From: a virus
Reading direction: 5' to 3' (one strand)
Virus record (IMG/VR): IMGVR_UViG_3300024518_004576
Span: 1 to 46,692 of that record
Length of the DNA stretch: 46,692 nucleotides
Part shown: positions 1 to 46,692 of the stretch, piece by piece
Layout of the letters: each line of letters starts with the position of its first letter
How positions within the stretch are numbered: the stretch's first letter is position 1
Notes under the pieces: generated by a model
The model's input: only the letters and a program-made list of their open reading frames with translations
Told to the model about the DNA's origin: nothing
Databases searched by the model: none
Program-made: the position numbers and the translations under genes

Positions 1-35
1 CGCGAGATTGCCAGGCTGCAGAAAAGGTTGTCTAA

Positions 36-251
36 ATGACGAAAGCTGAACTCAAAGAACGGTTGGACGCAGCGCGGGCCGATCTAGACGCTGCCTATTG
101 GGTTGCGTGGATAGCTGCCGGCGCTGCCGACGCTGCCGACGCTGCCGACGCCTACGCCGCCGCCGCCGCCCTAGCCGCCTCCGCCCGTGCTGCCTACCTC
201 GACGCCTATGAGGCTTACGAAAGCGCAGATGACGATGACGACGAAAGCTGA
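36..251 (+). CDS. Small acidic Ala/Asp/Tyr-rich protein, TKAEL array member
   Basis: This 71-aa protein belongs to a family that starts MTKAELKERLD and ends in an acidic tail (SADDDDDES). The middle is a run of AAD and A-rich repeats broken by Tyr, probably one long alpha helix. Acidic residues far outnumber basic ones (about 17 D/E). Paralogues follow at 229 and 700 and precede it at 46393. The copy starting at 46562 is the same gene seen from the other end of the contig, where it starts MTTKAEL. The stop overlaps the start of the next gene. The function is not known. The first 68 bases look like a recombinant junction with the 46393 copy. Confidence 0.75.
   Translation: MTKAELKERLDAARADLDAAYWVAWIAAGAADAADAADAYAAAAALAASARAAYLDAYEAYESADDDDDES
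38..163. repeat. Terminal overlap, left copy (matches 46567-46692)
   Basis: Positions 38-163 are identical to the last 126 bases of the window, which indicates a circular or circularly permuted molecule of about 46.5 kb. The match does not begin at base 1. Positions 3-68 instead match 46360-46425, so the left end carries a junction that skips one 172-bp array unit present at the right end. I read this as an assembly break at a variable repeat, not as a true terminal repeat of the virion DNA. Confidence 0.85.
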
Positions 252-462
252 ACTCAAGGAAAGGTTGGAGGAGGCGTGGGCAGTCTACGACGCCGCCGCC
301 AACGCCTACTACGACGCCGACTCCGCCGACTCCGCCTCCTACTACGACGCCCGTGCCTCCTACTACGACGCCGCCTACGCCTACGTTGATGCCCTCGACG
401 CCTACCGCGAGGCCCTCAAGGCCCTCGACGCCCATGAAAGCGTAGACGATGACAAAAACTAA
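229..462 (+). CDS. Small acidic Ala/Asp/Tyr-rich protein, TKAEL array member
   Basis: This 77-aa paralogue of the preceding gene reads MTMTTKAELKERLEEA, then a middle rich in YYDA and DAY repeats, then an acidic end (ESVDDDKN). I chose the ATG at 229 because the conserved TKAEL motif begins right after it; the ATG at 235 is equally possible. The reading frame stays open upstream to 187, but the family alignment argues against using it. The start lies inside the end of the upstream gene (stop at 249-251), so translation is probably coupled. The function is not known. Confidence 0.7.
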   Translation: MTMTTKAELKERLEEAWAVYDAAANAYYDADSADSASYYDARASYYDAAYAYVDALDAYREALKALDAHESVDDDKN

Positions 463-486
463 ATGCCACTCATCCTCGAATAGTGC

Positions 487-514
487 TTGCGCGACGATAT
501 GAGAGAGCTATAGT
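487..514 (+). promoter_or_regulatory. Leaderless promoter for the 521 gene
   Basis: TTGCGC (487-492), a 16-nt spacer, then TATAGT (509-514), with the ATG only six bases later at 521. There is no Shine-Dalgarno sequence, so the transcript probably begins at or next to the A of ATG. The -10 region through the start, AGCTATAGTAAATA, is repeated almost exactly in front of the gene at 43273. Confidence 0.7.
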
Positions 515-520
515 AAATAC

Positions 521-703
521 ATGACAACGACAACGACGAACACCGACCGCACTGGATACGACCTACTGAACTACTCTGACGCAGAGTACATCCGCCCCGC
601 CACAAAGGAGGAGTATGAGGCATCTATCGCACAGGCCCAGGTCGACGGTGGCGGCGGCGTCATCCGAATCGATGGCCTCAGCTGCTACGCGGTCGAGTCA
701 TGA
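521..703 (+). CDS. Small hypothetical protein, first gene of a leaderless unit
   Basis: This 60-aa protein starts with a Thr-rich stretch followed by a compact segment containing TGYDLLNYSDAEYIRP and a later GVIRIDGLSCYAVES. The mixed alpha/beta pattern looks like a small folded domain. I do not recognise a named family. It lies directly behind a good promoter with no ribosome binding site. Its last codons (GGTCGAGTC) overlap the next start through ATGA, a junction nearly identical to those at 25397 and 25789. It probably co-transcribes with the TKAEL paralogue at 700. Confidence 0.75.
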   Translation: MTTTTTNTDRTGYDLLNYSDAEYIRPATKEEYEASIAQAQVDGGGGVIRIDGLSCYAVES

Positions 704-942
704 CCAAAGCTGAACTCAGGGCTAGGGTGGACAAGGCGAGGGCCGATTTAGACGCTGCCTACGTCGCCTACGGGACCGCCCGCGACGCCGTCGACGAAGC
801 CGATGCAGCCCTCGCTTACGACGACGCCGACGTCGCCTACGACGCCGCCCTCGAGGCTTACGAAAGTGCAGACGATGACGACGAGTACGCTAGCCTAAGT
901 GACGCGGAGCTGGCGCGGCGGATGACTACACAGACACTGTAG
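700..942 (+). CDS. Small acidic Ala/Asp/Tyr-rich protein, TKAEL array member
   Basis: This 80-aa family member (MTKAELRARVDKARADLDAAY) has a diverged middle (DADVAYDAALEAYESADDDDE) and an extra C-terminal segment, YASLSDAELARRMTTQTL, that the other copies lack. The start overlaps the previous stop by four bases (ATGA). The DNA of its opening codons resembles the array copies but is more diverged, so it is an older duplicate. The function is not known. Confidence 0.7.
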   Translation: MTKAELRARVDKARADLDAAYVAYGTARDAVDEADAALAYDDADVAYDAALEAYESADDDDEYASLSDAELARRMTTQTL

Positions 943-947
943 GAGAA

Positions 948-998
948 ATGACCGACTACGATAGGAAAGCAGACGATGACGAAAGTTCACTTGCCTAG
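948..998 (+). CDS. 16-aa acidic peptide, possible TKAEL remnant
   Basis: A short frame of 16 residues (MTDYDRKADDDESSLA) has a good ribosome binding site (AGGAG at 941-945) three bases before its ATG. Its ADDDES end resembles the acidic tails of the array proteins. It may therefore be a deletion remnant in which the Ala-rich middle was lost. It could equally be a chance frame. Confidence 0.3.
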   Translation: MTDYDRKADDDESSLA

Positions 999-1544: not shown

Positions 1545-1581
1545 GCCCCGTGGAGACGAACGCTCCACGGGGCACTTTTTT
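1545..1581 (+). terminator. Strong intrinsic terminator
   Basis: An 11-bp perfect stem (GCCCCGTGGAG at 1545-1555, CTCCACGGGGC at 1563-1573) with a 7-nt loop is followed by a six-T tract at 1576-1581. It closes the accessory unit ending with the 1025 lipoprotein and separates it from the structural operon promoter. Confidence 0.93.
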
Positions 1582-11981: not shown

Positions 11982-12124
11982 CTGAACAATCGATCACAAC
12001 GGCACCCCCCCGCGTGTGCACCCAGACTTATAATAGAGATCCTTTAATAGTATATAGGTAATAGTAAAATATATAGATAGTATAGGAAGTTCGGACACAC
12101 ACGCGGAGGTCTCTGAGTGTGATC
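11982..12124. repeat. AT-rich palindromic cassette, copy 1
   Basis: Positions 12006-12106 (101 bp) are the exact reverse complement of 44547-44647, and a flanking 19-bp piece (CTGAACAATCGATCACAAC at 11982-12000) also has its reverse complement at 44653-44671. The centre is about 65 bp of nearly pure A/T with repeated TAATAG/TAGTATA motifs in a GC-rich genome. The ends carry CCGCGTGTG in inverted orientation, and GATCACA (11992-11998) is mirrored by TGTGATC (12118-12124). The cassette fills the gap between tape measure and Dit-like genes and has no reading frame. Its role is unknown: replication origin, bidirectional regulatory site or MITE-like element. Confidence 0.9.
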
Positions 12125-31621: not shown

Positions 31622-31800
31622 ACACCATCACGATCCGAAACACCATAGTGGGGGTGCAGATCACATTCACCGACATCCATGGGAGGAGCCGGACCACGTG
31701 CCCCCGAACCACGGTACAGTTGGCCGCACATGAGGCTGAACGACTCCTCCTGTCCGAGGACTCCTCCTCTTGGCTCACCACACTACAGGGGGCGAAGTGA
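31609..31800 (+). CDS. Small hypothetical protein
   Basis: A 63-aa protein (MEALNTITIRNTIVGVQITF, then AAHEAERLLLSEDSSSWLTTLQGAK), a beta hairpin followed by a helix. The start overlaps the polymerase end by 13 bases behind GGAGAA. It is coupled to the next gene by GTGA. No family recognised. Confidence 0.6.
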   Translation: MEALNTITIRNTIVGVQITFTDIHGRSRTTCPRTTVQLAAHEAERLLLSEDSSSWLTTLQGAK

Positions 31801-32480
31801 GAGCCTACCATATTACATCCGACACCCTCCGTGACGGACGGCCCCTCCCCGCCATCGGTGAGACACTCCACCACGACGGTCCCGTGCGGCTCTGCGCCAG
31901 TGGACTCCACGCCTCAATACACATACTTAACGCCCTGAAATATTGCCCGTACAACCCTACGTGGATCCATGTGGTGGAATGTGAGGGAGAAATCCAACAG
32001 GGAAGCGACAAACTCTCCTGCAGCCAACGCACCATCGTGGAATCCCATCCGTGGGACACCCGTGCCGTGGTGATTCTGGCACTGGAGTGCGCCGCGCTAT
32101 CCTGCGCCTCCGCGGGGGCCCCCTACCAGGATCTGTTAGACGTGGCCCACGATCCTAATAGTACATGGCAGCAGATGCAATCCGCCGCCCTCGACGCCTA
32201 CGACGACGCCCTAGCCCCCACCGCCCTCACCGCCCGCCACGCCTACCTTGAGGCCTGCTCCGACGCCGCCCTCACCGCCCGCTACGCCGCCTACGACGCC
32301 GCCTACACCGCCCGCTACGCCGCCTACGACGCCGCCGCCCGCGCCGCCAACGCCGCTGCCAACGCCGCCAACGCCGCTGCCGCCGAAGCCGCCGCCTACA
32401 CCGCCTACACCACCGCCCTCCCCGTGTGGGAGACCGGGGAACTGCGAGCTGTCGAATTACTGACGGGAGGCGCGAAGTGA
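31797..32480 (+). CDS. DUF7666-like protein with Ala/Tyr-rich repeat tail
   Basis: A 227-aa protein. The first 110 residues (GRPLPAIGETLHHDGPVRLCASGLHASIHILNALKYCP, WIHVVECEGEIQQGSDKLSC, RTIVES) match a domain I know only as DUF7666-like. From about residue 130 a long repeat region begins with AAYDAAYTARYAAYDAAARA units, then NAAANAANAA. This low-complexity helix resembles the tiny TKAEL proteins and may share their origin. The DNA behind it is a GCC-rich repeat prone to slippage and unequal recombination. Confidence 0.6.
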   Translation: MRAYHITSDTLRDGRPLPAIGETLHHDGPVRLCASGLHASIHILNALKYCPYNPTWIHVVECEGEIQQGSDKLSCSQRTIVESHPWDTRAVVILALECAALSCASAGAPYQDLLDVAHDPNSTWQQMQSAALDAYDDALAPTALTARHAYLEACSDAALTARYAAYDAAYTARYAAYDAAARAANAAANAANAAAAEAAAYTAYTTALPVWETGELRAVELLTGGAK

Positions 32481-35887: not shown

Positions 35888-36621
35888 CCGGATGCGATAT
35901 CAGCAAGTACCAGGCCCCCAACGCCTCAGGAGAGACGTTCCAAGTAGGAAAGGGGTTCCATGCCTACGACACCTTCGACTTCCTCTATATTAGAGCGTTC
36001 TACGGAGATCGGGAAGACCGCTCCGTAGCGAATCACTCGTACAACTGTCTACGCGCAAACGTGCCCTACGGCTATTACCAGTTCTGGCGCCCGGGCTGTT
36101 CCGTTCCCGCGCCTGAGGCGTTGGGAGGCGCGAGCCTAAGGATGGCATTGGACGTGGAGTCAAATGACAAGTACGATCCACCACTGACCTCCAGCTCCGC
36201 CTCTGAAATCATGGAGTACCTGAGGCAGTTTCGGGCTGAGCATGGGTACGATCCGGTCATCTACACGAGCCAGAGGGACTGGGGCAAGCTCGGGATCCCT
36301 TATCCGACCCAATGCCCCTTGTGGGTAGCTCACTGGACGAATGCCCCCGACCCGGCCCTGCCTGCAGGCGCAGAGGACTACGCGATCTGGCAGTACAGTA
36401 ACAGTGGGGGGAACTTGGACCTCGACAGAGCGGAGAGCTTGGAGCCGTTCCTGATTCCGTCTAAATCCAGTGACACCACACCCGACTTAGATGGGGAGCT
36501 AATCACTCTCGCGGAGGCCTACGTCAAGGAGATGGTAGGCTACGCCGGCTCCGCGGAGGATACAGTGAACCTCGCCTACGAGACGGCCGCTCTCGTACTC
36601 GCCCGCCGGAGGGGGGAGTGA
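35881..36621 (+). CDS. Endolysin, glycoside hydrolase family 25
   Basis: A 246-aa muramidase. GCDISKYQ (Asp6) at the start, MALDVES (Asp91, Glu93), PVIYTSQRDW, LWVAHW and YAIWQYSNSGGNLDLDRAES are the GH25 landmarks. The C-terminal 45 residues form a helical tail (LITLAEAYVKEMVGYAGSAEDTVNLAYETAAL). No signal peptide is visible, so a holin is needed; none is adjacent, and candidates are the small membrane proteins at 20271, 24719 and 29111. The ATG at 35881 begins the domain exactly. Confidence 0.9.
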   Translation: MLAGCDISKYQAPNASGETFQVGKGFHAYDTFDFLYIRAFYGDREDRSVANHSYNCLRANVPYGYYQFWRPGCSVPAPEALGGASLRMALDVESNDKYDPPLTSSSASEIMEYLRQFRAEHGYDPVIYTSQRDWGKLGIPYPTQCPLWVAHWTNAPDPALPAGAEDYAIWQYSNSGGNLDLDRAESLEPFLIPSKSSDTTPDLDGELITLAEAYVKEMVGYAGSAEDTVNLAYETAALVLARRRGE

Positions 36622-37139
36622 TCCGGTATGAAGTCTGGACGCTGCACGCCTCCGGCAAACAGCTTCTCGCGTCGGTGTGGCTCACACGGGAATCCGCAGA
36701 CGGGCACGCGGGTTGCCTGGACTCCCAGCGCAAGGCCTGGGAAAGCTGGCCGATCTACCATGTGGTGGAGGGGATTACCATGCCGGAGCGGGAGGGTATT
36801 TACGACTACCGCGGGGCCTCGTACCGCATTACAAAATTGATTACATCGTGCCCGACGTGCGGGCACCCCCACGCAGAGGACTCTCTGAAGTGCCGCGCAT
36901 GTGAAAGAACGGCAGAGGCCCAAACGGAATTGGACTCCTGCAGTGATGGCGTCTTTTACGTGGGGTACAACGAACGCGCAAGGGAGTCGAAAGCTAAGCT
37001 CAAAGCTAGGGTGGACGAGGCGTGGGCCGCTTACGACGCCGCCTATTTCAACACCCGTGCCTCCAGCGCCGCCTACGATGACGCCCGTGCTGACTACCTC
37101 GAGGCCTACGAGGCCTACGAAAGTGTAGACGATGAGTGA
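36618..37139 (+). CDS. Zinc-ribbon protein fused to a TKAEL-type acidic domain
   Basis: A 173-aa protein in three parts: a beta-rich N-terminus (IRYEVWTLHASGKQLLASVWLT), a CPTCGH...CRAC zinc ribbon (about residues 78-96) and a C-terminal module KAKLKARVDEAWAAYDAAYF ending in EAYEAYESVDDE. The last part is clearly a member of the tiny acidic protein family at 36-942. So the module exists both free and as a fused domain. The function is not known. Confidence 0.72.
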   Translation: MIRYEVWTLHASGKQLLASVWLTRESADGHAGCLDSQRKAWESWPIYHVVEGITMPEREGIYDYRGASYRITKLITSCPTCGHPHAEDSLKCRACERTAEAQTELDSCSDGVFYVGYNERARESKAKLKARVDEAWAAYDAAYFNTRASSAAYDDARADYLEAYEAYESVDDE

Positions 37140-44405: not shown

Positions 44406-44485
44406 CGGAGAAAATCATTTTTGGATTTAATTCGGCAATAAAGATCGGAGGGAAATCATTTTGTGGATTTAATTCGGCAATAAAG
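44406..44485. repeat. Two tandem AT-rich direct repeats (about 40 bp)
   Basis: Two copies (44406-44443 and 44446-44485) share GGATTTAATTCGGCAATAAA and an upstream AAATCATTTT. They lie in the 416-bp gene-free stretch 44295-44710. With only two copies this is not a CRISPR array. The AT richness and the palindromic cassette next to it suggest an origin-like or regulatory region. Frames on both strands crossing it are simply the repeat translated. Confidence 0.8.
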
Positions 44486-44532
44486 GCGAAAACTAATTTA
44501 ATTAAAAACCTCAATGAATCTGGCAAAGCATT

Positions 44533-44671
44533 ACAACTGTAGCCCCCCGCGTGTGTGTCCGAACTTCCTATACTATCTATATATTTTACTATTACCTATA
44601 TACTATTAAAGGATCTCTATTATAAGTCTGGGTGCACACGCGGGGGGCTACAGTTGTGATCGATTGTTCAG
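44533..44671. repeat. AT-rich palindromic cassette, copy 2 (inverted)
   Basis: Positions 44547-44647 are the exact reverse complement of 12006-12106. In this copy the ends form a 23-bp perfect terminal inverted repeat (44533-44555 and 44635-44657, starting ACAACTGTAG), enclosing 79 bp of mostly A/T. A further 19 bp outside (44653-44671) match the flank of copy 1. Copy 1 lacks the perfect ends, so the palindrome is longer here. It lies between the terminator at 44371 and the gene at 44711. Confidence 0.92.
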
Positions 44672-45462: not shown

Positions 45463-45780
45463 ATGACACTAACGATCGAGATAGAGCGTATCCCCGCGGA
45501 CGATATCGGGCCTGGCGGCTACATCGTGACGGACTCCGGCGGCAAAAAACACTTTGGCCCGACGCTGCCCGTCGCGCTACACAGTCTGGCAGCCTGGTTG
45601 CCTGAGGACGCCTTCGAGTCGCCCAAGGAGAAGCTAGAGAAGGCCTATGCGGCGGGCAAGGTGGTCCGCCACGTGCCCTACGGGTATGACTACGTGCACG
45701 CCGCGGGGATGGATTTCTCGCGCCTTGGCCAGCCAGGGCCCGCCTTCAACGAACCTGAGAATTGGGAGATAATCGAATGA
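45463..45780 (+). CDS. Hypothetical protein, tandem paralogue A
   Basis: A 105-aa protein. It begins MTLTIEIERIP, has FGPTLPVALHSLAAWLPEDAFESPKEKLEKAYAAGKVV and ends PGPAFNEPENWEIIE. The next protein has the same blocks (MKLTIEID, MDAFYSPQEKLQRAYAAGKVM, PAFDEPEEWEVAE), so they arose by tandem duplication. A good ribosome binding site precedes the ATG. The function is not known. Confidence 0.7.
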   Translation: MTLTIEIERIPADDIGPGGYIVTDSGGKKHFGPTLPVALHSLAAWLPEDAFESPKEKLEKAYAAGKVVRHVPYGYDYVHAAGMDFSRLGQPGPAFNEPENWEIIE

Positions 45781-46103
45781 AACTAACGATTGAGATTGAC
45801 CAGGTGCGTGAGGCCCTGGACAGCCAGGACACCCACGTCCAGTGGAGAGTGACCGCTCCCGACGGCACAGAATATCTGGACGCATACTTATGCTCGGCCG
45901 TCAGCGACATGATTGGCGACCTCCCCATGGACGCCTTCTACTCGCCCCAGGAGAAGCTCCAGCGGGCCTATGCGGCTGGCAAAGTGATGCTCAACCAGCG
46001 CTCGCAGTATCACCACGTGCGCGTTGGGGAGCTAGACCTCTACGGCTGGCTCACCGCGCAGCCTGCCTTCGACGAGCCCGAGGAATGGGAGGTAGCTGAA
46101 TGA
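45777..46103 (+). CDS. Hypothetical protein, tandem paralogue B
   Basis: A 108-aa paralogue of the previous protein, sharing the DAF-SP-EKL-AYAAGKV core and the final PAFxEPExWExxE. It starts in ATGA with the upstream stop and ends in ATGA with the zinc-finger gene. Confidence 0.7.
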   Translation: MKLTIEIDQVREALDSQDTHVQWRVTAPDGTEYLDAYLCSAVSDMIGDLPMDAFYSPQEKLQRAYAAGKVMLNQRSQYHHVRVGELDLYGWLTAQPAFDEPEEWEVAE

Positions 46104-46396
46104 GCACCACATCGAAAAGTTTCTGGGAGTCTGTCGACTCGATAGCCGATGAGGCGCGCCACGAGCGCACCCTACGCGGCTTCCGGCACGAACCCTGTGG
46201 ACACTGCTCGAGCTCGGGCAGAGAGCCGGGTAGTAAATGGGCATACGTGGATGCTGATGGGTATAGATGCGTGGGCTATGCCAACTGCACCGAGTGCAGC
46301 GGGAGACGGTATCTCGTTGCCGACGTGACGCCAGAGGAGCAGGACGCCGCCCTTACACTCGAGATTGCCAGGCTGCAGAAAAGGTTGTCTAAATGA
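46100..46396 (+). CDS. DnaJ-like zinc-finger protein
   Basis: A 98-aa protein with CGHCSSSGREPG and CTECSGRRYL, the CxxCxxxG pairs typical of DnaJ-like zinc centres, followed by a helix (DAALTLEIARLQKRLSK). It overlaps the first array gene by four bases. The function is not known; it may bind nucleic acid. Confidence 0.65.
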   Translation: MSTTSKSFWESVDSIADEARHERTLRGFRHEPCGHCSSSGREPGSKWAYVDADGYRCVGYANCTECSGRRYLVADVTPEEQDAALTLEIARLQKRLSK

Positions 46397-46578
46397 CGAA
46401 AGCTGAACTCAAAGAACGGTTGGACCAGGCGAGGGTAGTCTACGACGACGCCCTCGGTACCGCCGCCGCTGCCCGCGACGCCCTCGGTACCGCCCGCGAC
46501 GTCGCCGACGACGCCCGTGTCGTTTACTGCGCTGCGCGGGAGGCCTACGAAAGTGCGACTGATGACGACGAAAGCTGA
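46393..46578 (+). CDS. Small acidic Ala/Asp-rich protein, first TKAEL array member
   Basis: A 61-aa family member (MTKAELKERLDQARVVYDDA) with GTAAAARDALGTARD repeats and an acidic end (ESATDDDES). Its first 31 bases after the initial AT are identical to those at 38-68 and 46567-46597. The left end of the window lacks this unit (172 bp), so it is probably lost in part of the population. The function is not known. Confidence 0.72.
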   Translation: MTKAELKERLDQARVVYDDALGTAAAARDALGTARDVADDARVVYCAAREAYESATDDDES

Positions 46579-46692
46579 ACTCAAAGAACGGTTGGACGCA
46601 GCGCGGGCCGATCTAGACGCTGCCTATTGGGTTGCGTGGATAGCTGCCGGCGCTGCCGACGCTGCCGACGCTGCCGACGCCTACGCCGCCGC
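46562..46692 (+). CDS. TKAEL array member, cut by the window end
   Basis: This frame starts MTTKAELKERLDAARADLDA inside the end of the previous gene and is cut by the window edge. From 46567 it is identical to the gene at 36-251, so it is the same gene seen from the other side of the circular junction, with a slightly different start. Confidence 0.75.
   Translation, partial: MTTKAELKERLDAARADLDAAYWVAWIAAGAADAADAADAYAA
46567..46692. repeat. Terminal overlap, right copy (matches 38-163)
   Basis: The last 126 bases are identical to positions 38-163. Closing the molecule through this match gives about 46,529 bp. Confidence 0.85.

Follow-up and report, generated by a model that had tools for sequence, protein, structure and literature searches.

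Acidic DNA mimics of the Ocr type are small, acidic, helical phage proteins, and in each of these respects the proteins described here (the TKAEL proteins, after their shared N terminus) resemble them; however, no sequence match to known mimics was found for the TKAEL proteins, which are modeled as a single Ala-rich helix, with no known mimic fold. The alanine-zipper lipoproteins (Lpp/OprI, PF11839, NF040598) likewise possess an Ala-rich helix with 7-residue periodicity, but the TKAEL proteins begin MTKAEL, without a signal peptide or lipobox, and the alanine-zipper model scores copy 4 only weakly (E 0.078, 13.5 bits against a curated cut-off of 43). This phage's own member of DUF7666 (PF24703) carries similar GCC-coded Ala/Tyr/Asp repeats; the TKAEL proteins, in contrast, are without the DUF7666 domain and have a conserved head and tail, and the resemblance is one of composition only. 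At the level of gene organization, the point of comparison is dmd-tifA of phage T4, a small counter-defence gene multiplied in tandem via short repeats, with deletions arising by the same route (PMC9391042). There is thus precedent for small phage genes being duplicated through recombination, and tandem multiplication of a small gene through short repeats is what the two loci have in common. The T4 repeats are microhomologies of 6-10 bp (PMC9391042). TifA, which bears a positively charged cluster, is not related to the acidic TKAEL proteins. Furthermore, the T4 copies are recent whereas those described here have diverged, and in our array, unlike dmd-tifA, genes overlap in two frames at two joints and one of the copies has been fused to a different gene.

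The window, by which we mean the whole stretch of 46,692 nt that was analyzed, is the entire virus record, a circular myovirus contig encoding a tail sheath, tape measure, baseplate, terminase, portal, head protease, and major head protein together with a DNA polymerase, helicase, and methyltransferase. No close relative was found in the phage records searched, leaving the phage an orphan; relatives recognized by head protease or terminase are only about 29-45% identical. The final 126 nt (46567-46692) repeat positions 38-163 exactly, so the contig circularizes inside the array, which lies around both contig ends. Other repeats were observed elsewhere in the window. A 131-nt element sited between gene modules occurs twice, at 11982-12112 and 44541-44671, in opposite orientation and with 96% identity, and a copy at 44530-44660 makes 37-nt inverted arms. 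In addition, TTTTTGGATTTAATTCGGCAATAAAG occurs twice as a direct repeat, at a distance of 42 nt, within an AT-rich stretch at 44418-44485.

The family in this phage comprises four small neighboring paralogous genes, whose acidic, Ala/Asp/Tyr-rich products of 61-80 amino acids all begin M-T-(T)-K-A-E-L, and one gene-fused copy. The relevant features are as follows.

1 to 37, plus strand: candidate recombinant joint, in which 3-37 equal 46360-46394 (upstream of copy 1) and are followed by the copy 2 body
36 to 251, plus strand: second occurrence of copy 2, at the contig start (71 amino acids), with a hybrid head derived from copy 1
229 to 462, plus strand: copy 3, 77 or 75 amino acids (start 229 or 235), overlapping the copy 2 stop by 23 or 17 nt, respectively
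521 to 703, plus strand: unrelated 60-amino-acid gene separating copies 3 and 4, its stop sharing ATGA with the copy 4 start
700 to 942, plus strand: copy 4, 80 amino acids, with a C-terminal extension beyond DDDDE
948 to 998, plus strand: possible vestige, a 16-codon open reading frame (MTDYDRKADDDESSLA) behind AGGAGA
32172 to 32420, plus strand: GCC-rich Ala/Tyr/Asp repeats, within the C-terminal half of the DUF7666 protein (31797-32480; E 8e-12)
36984 to 37136, plus strand: copy 5, fused in frame to the zinc-ribbon gene 36618-37139 as its C-terminal module (SKAKLKARVDEAW...EAYESVDDE)
46393 to 46578, plus strand: copy 1, 61 amino acids (MTKAELKERLDQ...EAYESATDDDES), starting at an ATGA that shares the stop of the gene 46100-46396
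46562 to 46692, plus strand: 5' part of copy 2 at the contig end, beginning MTTKAEL and overlapping copy 1 by 17 nt

The original prediction, made from the sequence, listed at least four TKAEL genes, at 46393, 46562/36, 229, and 700. All of them exist, and the exact 126-nt repeat makes 46562 and 36 one gene. With three mismatches allowed, the head pattern matches the window 5 times, against 0.05 expected from shuffles, so the array is not a matter of chance. The prediction did, however, miss both the fused copy, which a profile made from the four neighboring genes recovered at E = 9.2e-12 and whose host gene has a zinc-ribbon score under Pfam's cut-off, and the repeats of the DUF7666 gene. Internal stops are absent from all copies; the bodies differ in length by whole codons, and heads and tails are conserved. 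The open reading frame at 948-998 strings together words resembling a head and a tail and has next to no body; it is possibly a vestigial copy.

At the junctions of copies 1 and 2 and of copies 2 and 3, one DNA stretch is read in two frames across a 17-nt overlap: the tail GAT GAC GAC GAA AGC TGA (DDDES*) contains the next start, ATG ACG ACG AAA GCT GAA (MTTKAE), and the word GATGACGACGAAAGCTGAAC occurs in the window only at these two joints. Given that tail and next start are the same 17 nt, the poly-Asp of copies 1 and 2 is not an independent feature. The tails, predicted to be poly-Asp, read DDDES, DDDDDES, DDDKN, and DDDDEYASLSDAELARRMTTQTL; the poly-Asp is partly a by-product of gene overlap, and the overlaps sharing tail and start are new. 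Copies 1 and 4 start at an ATGA in common with the preceding gene's stop, and translational coupling across the array is plausible.

Are the array genes translated? In the coding frame, the heads have a pN/pS of 0.45 (pS 0.41, pN 0.18; bootstrap share with a ratio of at least 1, 0.0014), against 1.04 and 0.65 in the other two frames, and dN is below dS in 10 of 10 copy pairs; the sample behind these values is small, with 18 head codons from five copies that are not independent of one another. Amino-acid differences are fewer than silent ones, clearly only in the coding frame, which argues that the genes are probably translated. The prediction would have fallen had the TKAEL segment lacked purifying selection, and such selection is what the coding frame displays.

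The bodies have a different character. In copies 1-4, GCC makes up 49 of 61 body Ala codons (80%), compared with 321 of 948 in the large genes elsewhere (34%), and other stretches rich in Ala use GCC for 51 of 179 (Fisher p 1.4e-12 against the bodies); for the repeats of the DUF7666 gene the count is 36 of 38. This homogenization suggests DNA-level expansion of the bodies. At lag 7, residue identity is elevated (z 5.1), indicating a 7-residue periodicity, but the hydrophobic moment is borderline for copy 1 (p 0.05) and not significant for copies 2-4, so that it gives no clear sign of an amphipathic coiled coil, and the period may therefore come from a 21-nt duplication. The idea that the family diversifies by repeat shuffling is thus supported indirectly, by GCC homogenization and periodicity.

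Unequal crossing over between identical 31-bp gene starts had also been proposed. Copies 1 and 2 do have 31 identical nt at the head, but this is true of these two only: the remaining exact matches among heads span 13-24 nt, for a range of 13-31 nt among the four neighboring paralogous copies. At the contig start, copy 1 (172 nt) is absent from the joint, in which the region upstream of copy 1 runs straight into the body of copy 2 across the 31-nt identical repeat. Loss of 172 nt between the heads of copies 1 and 2 would yield the joint seen there. This one joined end is consistent with recombination, although a single mismatch, at position 2, leaves room for a chimera formed in sequencing or amplification, and we thus read the joint as either a recombinant lacking copy 1 or a chimera.

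We found no homologue by blastn or tblastn in phage records, by peptide and alignment scans of viral contigs, or with DNA patterns drawn from tail, head, and joint and run against viral and bacterial contigs and species genomes, nor did we find among viral contigs a related phage with an array. Because low-complexity filtering in tblastn removes most of the query and may miss relatives, we additionally applied the profile to 50 contigs chosen for carrying a related head protease or terminase; it detected the family in none of them. Two hits, L005 and L095, proved unrelated on reading, and for two joint-pattern hits (L013 and L014) a composition scan shows no such Ala/Asp/Tyr-rich stretch. Protein family searches, including PADLOC, gave no match above cut-off, in agreement with the original view that no named system is of this kind, and no literature was found on DUF7666 or on Alacoil phage proteins.

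Directly upstream of the array lies a tandem pair of paralogues (45463-45780 and 45762-46103; 37% identical, E 6e-21) of no known family. Just downstream, the gene 1025-1468 has a lipoprotein-like signal and the HELGHRIGLGHH zinc-peptidase motif (HExxHxxGxxH), with weak matrixin and Metallopep scores and no match in phage records. Together, array and neighbors likely form an accessory gene cluster, beyond which lie the following features.

1545 to 1573, plus strand: terminator-like stem of 11 pairs followed by a T run, 3' of the array and the metallopeptidase-like gene
1599 to 1628: promoter-like site, after the terminator-like stem
2713: head maturation protease, downstream of the array
4255: major head protein, downstream of the array

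The terminator-like and promoter-like sites lie between the array cluster and the head genes; the terminator scan returned 1 site versus 1.6 in shuffles and so is not above shuffles.

What, then, are the products? Their pI is 4.05-4.26 and their net charge is -7.5 to -13.5. AlphaFold models copy 4 alone as one helix over residues 3-64 plus a short second helix (mean pLDDT 84), in keeping with the long acidic helices originally foreseen; single-sequence models of Ala-rich peptides tend toward helix, and the prediction lends weak support to a single long acidic helix. For the fused protein the model is of low quality (pLDDT 64) and does not reveal what the N-terminal part is.

Several explanations compete for these observations. 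The explanation that we prefer, and consider somewhat probable, is that the genes are a phage-specific accessory family encoding short acidic Ala-rich helices, with copies gained and lost by recombination. One could instead suppose that low-complexity GCC DNA expands by slippage and that the encoded proteins have little function. GCC homogenization, the similar repeats in the DUF7666 gene, the failure to find homologues, and the possible vestigial copy all fit such drift, but heads that preserve amino-acid sequence, clearly so in the coding frame alone, and copies free of internal stops do not, and we regard it as rather unlikely. The array might also be an assembly product of a repeat region, with copy number or order wrong. 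The contig does break within the array, and its two ends disagree; yet body and flanks are particular to each copy, and copies 3 and 4 and the fused one are inside the contig, so that this source of error seems quite improbable.

Two further alternatives concern function. The helices may imitate the charge of DNA and, as Ocr does, block a host restriction, CRISPR, or DNA-binding protein. A pI of about 4.1, a net charge reaching -13.5 in 80 amino acids, the helical prediction, and the presence of several copies in a likely accessory cluster are what such mimics would lead one to expect; on the other hand, nothing in the families searched, PADLOC included, matches, part of the acidity follows from the gene overlap (DDDES), and in copies 1 and 2 the bodies are rich in Ala and not uniformly acidic. 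We consider DNA mimicry unlikely, and any tie to restriction or CRISPR, raised by the original prediction, would be speculation. Still less credible to us is a role in virion assembly as a coiled-coil scaffold or head chaperone, for which the upstream position relative to the head protease and capsid genes and the helical, acidic products would speak: the terminator-like and promoter-like sites separate the array from the head genes, one copy is fused to a distant zinc-ribbon gene, and the family is missing from the 50 contigs selected by head protease or terminase.

Returning to the preferred explanation, an accessory family with recombining copies, we envision a mechanism in which copies are gained or lost through recombination between the head repeats. 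Each exchange would retain the stop/start overlap, such that every new copy could be translated via coupling to the preceding one, and bodies would lengthen or shorten by exchange or slippage within the GCC/GAC/TAC repeats. The products would act as soluble helical binders expressed from an accessory cluster ahead of a terminator. We tentatively posit that their most likely target is a host protein or a defence protein, and that the number of copies and the length of the bodies would tune dose or binding, a possibility that we would place well short of probable. At low confidence, we favor an accessory protein-binding, possibly counter-defence role; given the T4 precedent of counter-defence gene amplification, such a role is reasonable as a first test and is not a finding. 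More speculatively, and with doubt, we suggest that the overlap may be a self-propagating cassette, in which head exchanges add or remove a whole translation-coupled gene and so vary how many acidic helix effectors a phage population carries and how long these are.

If copy number does vary in the population, this locus would be a compact natural example of an array of phage genes whose joints keep them translatable through each exchange. The protein family was seen in no other record searched, and, if the proposal is true, it would offer a testable case of rapid change in small phage effectors.
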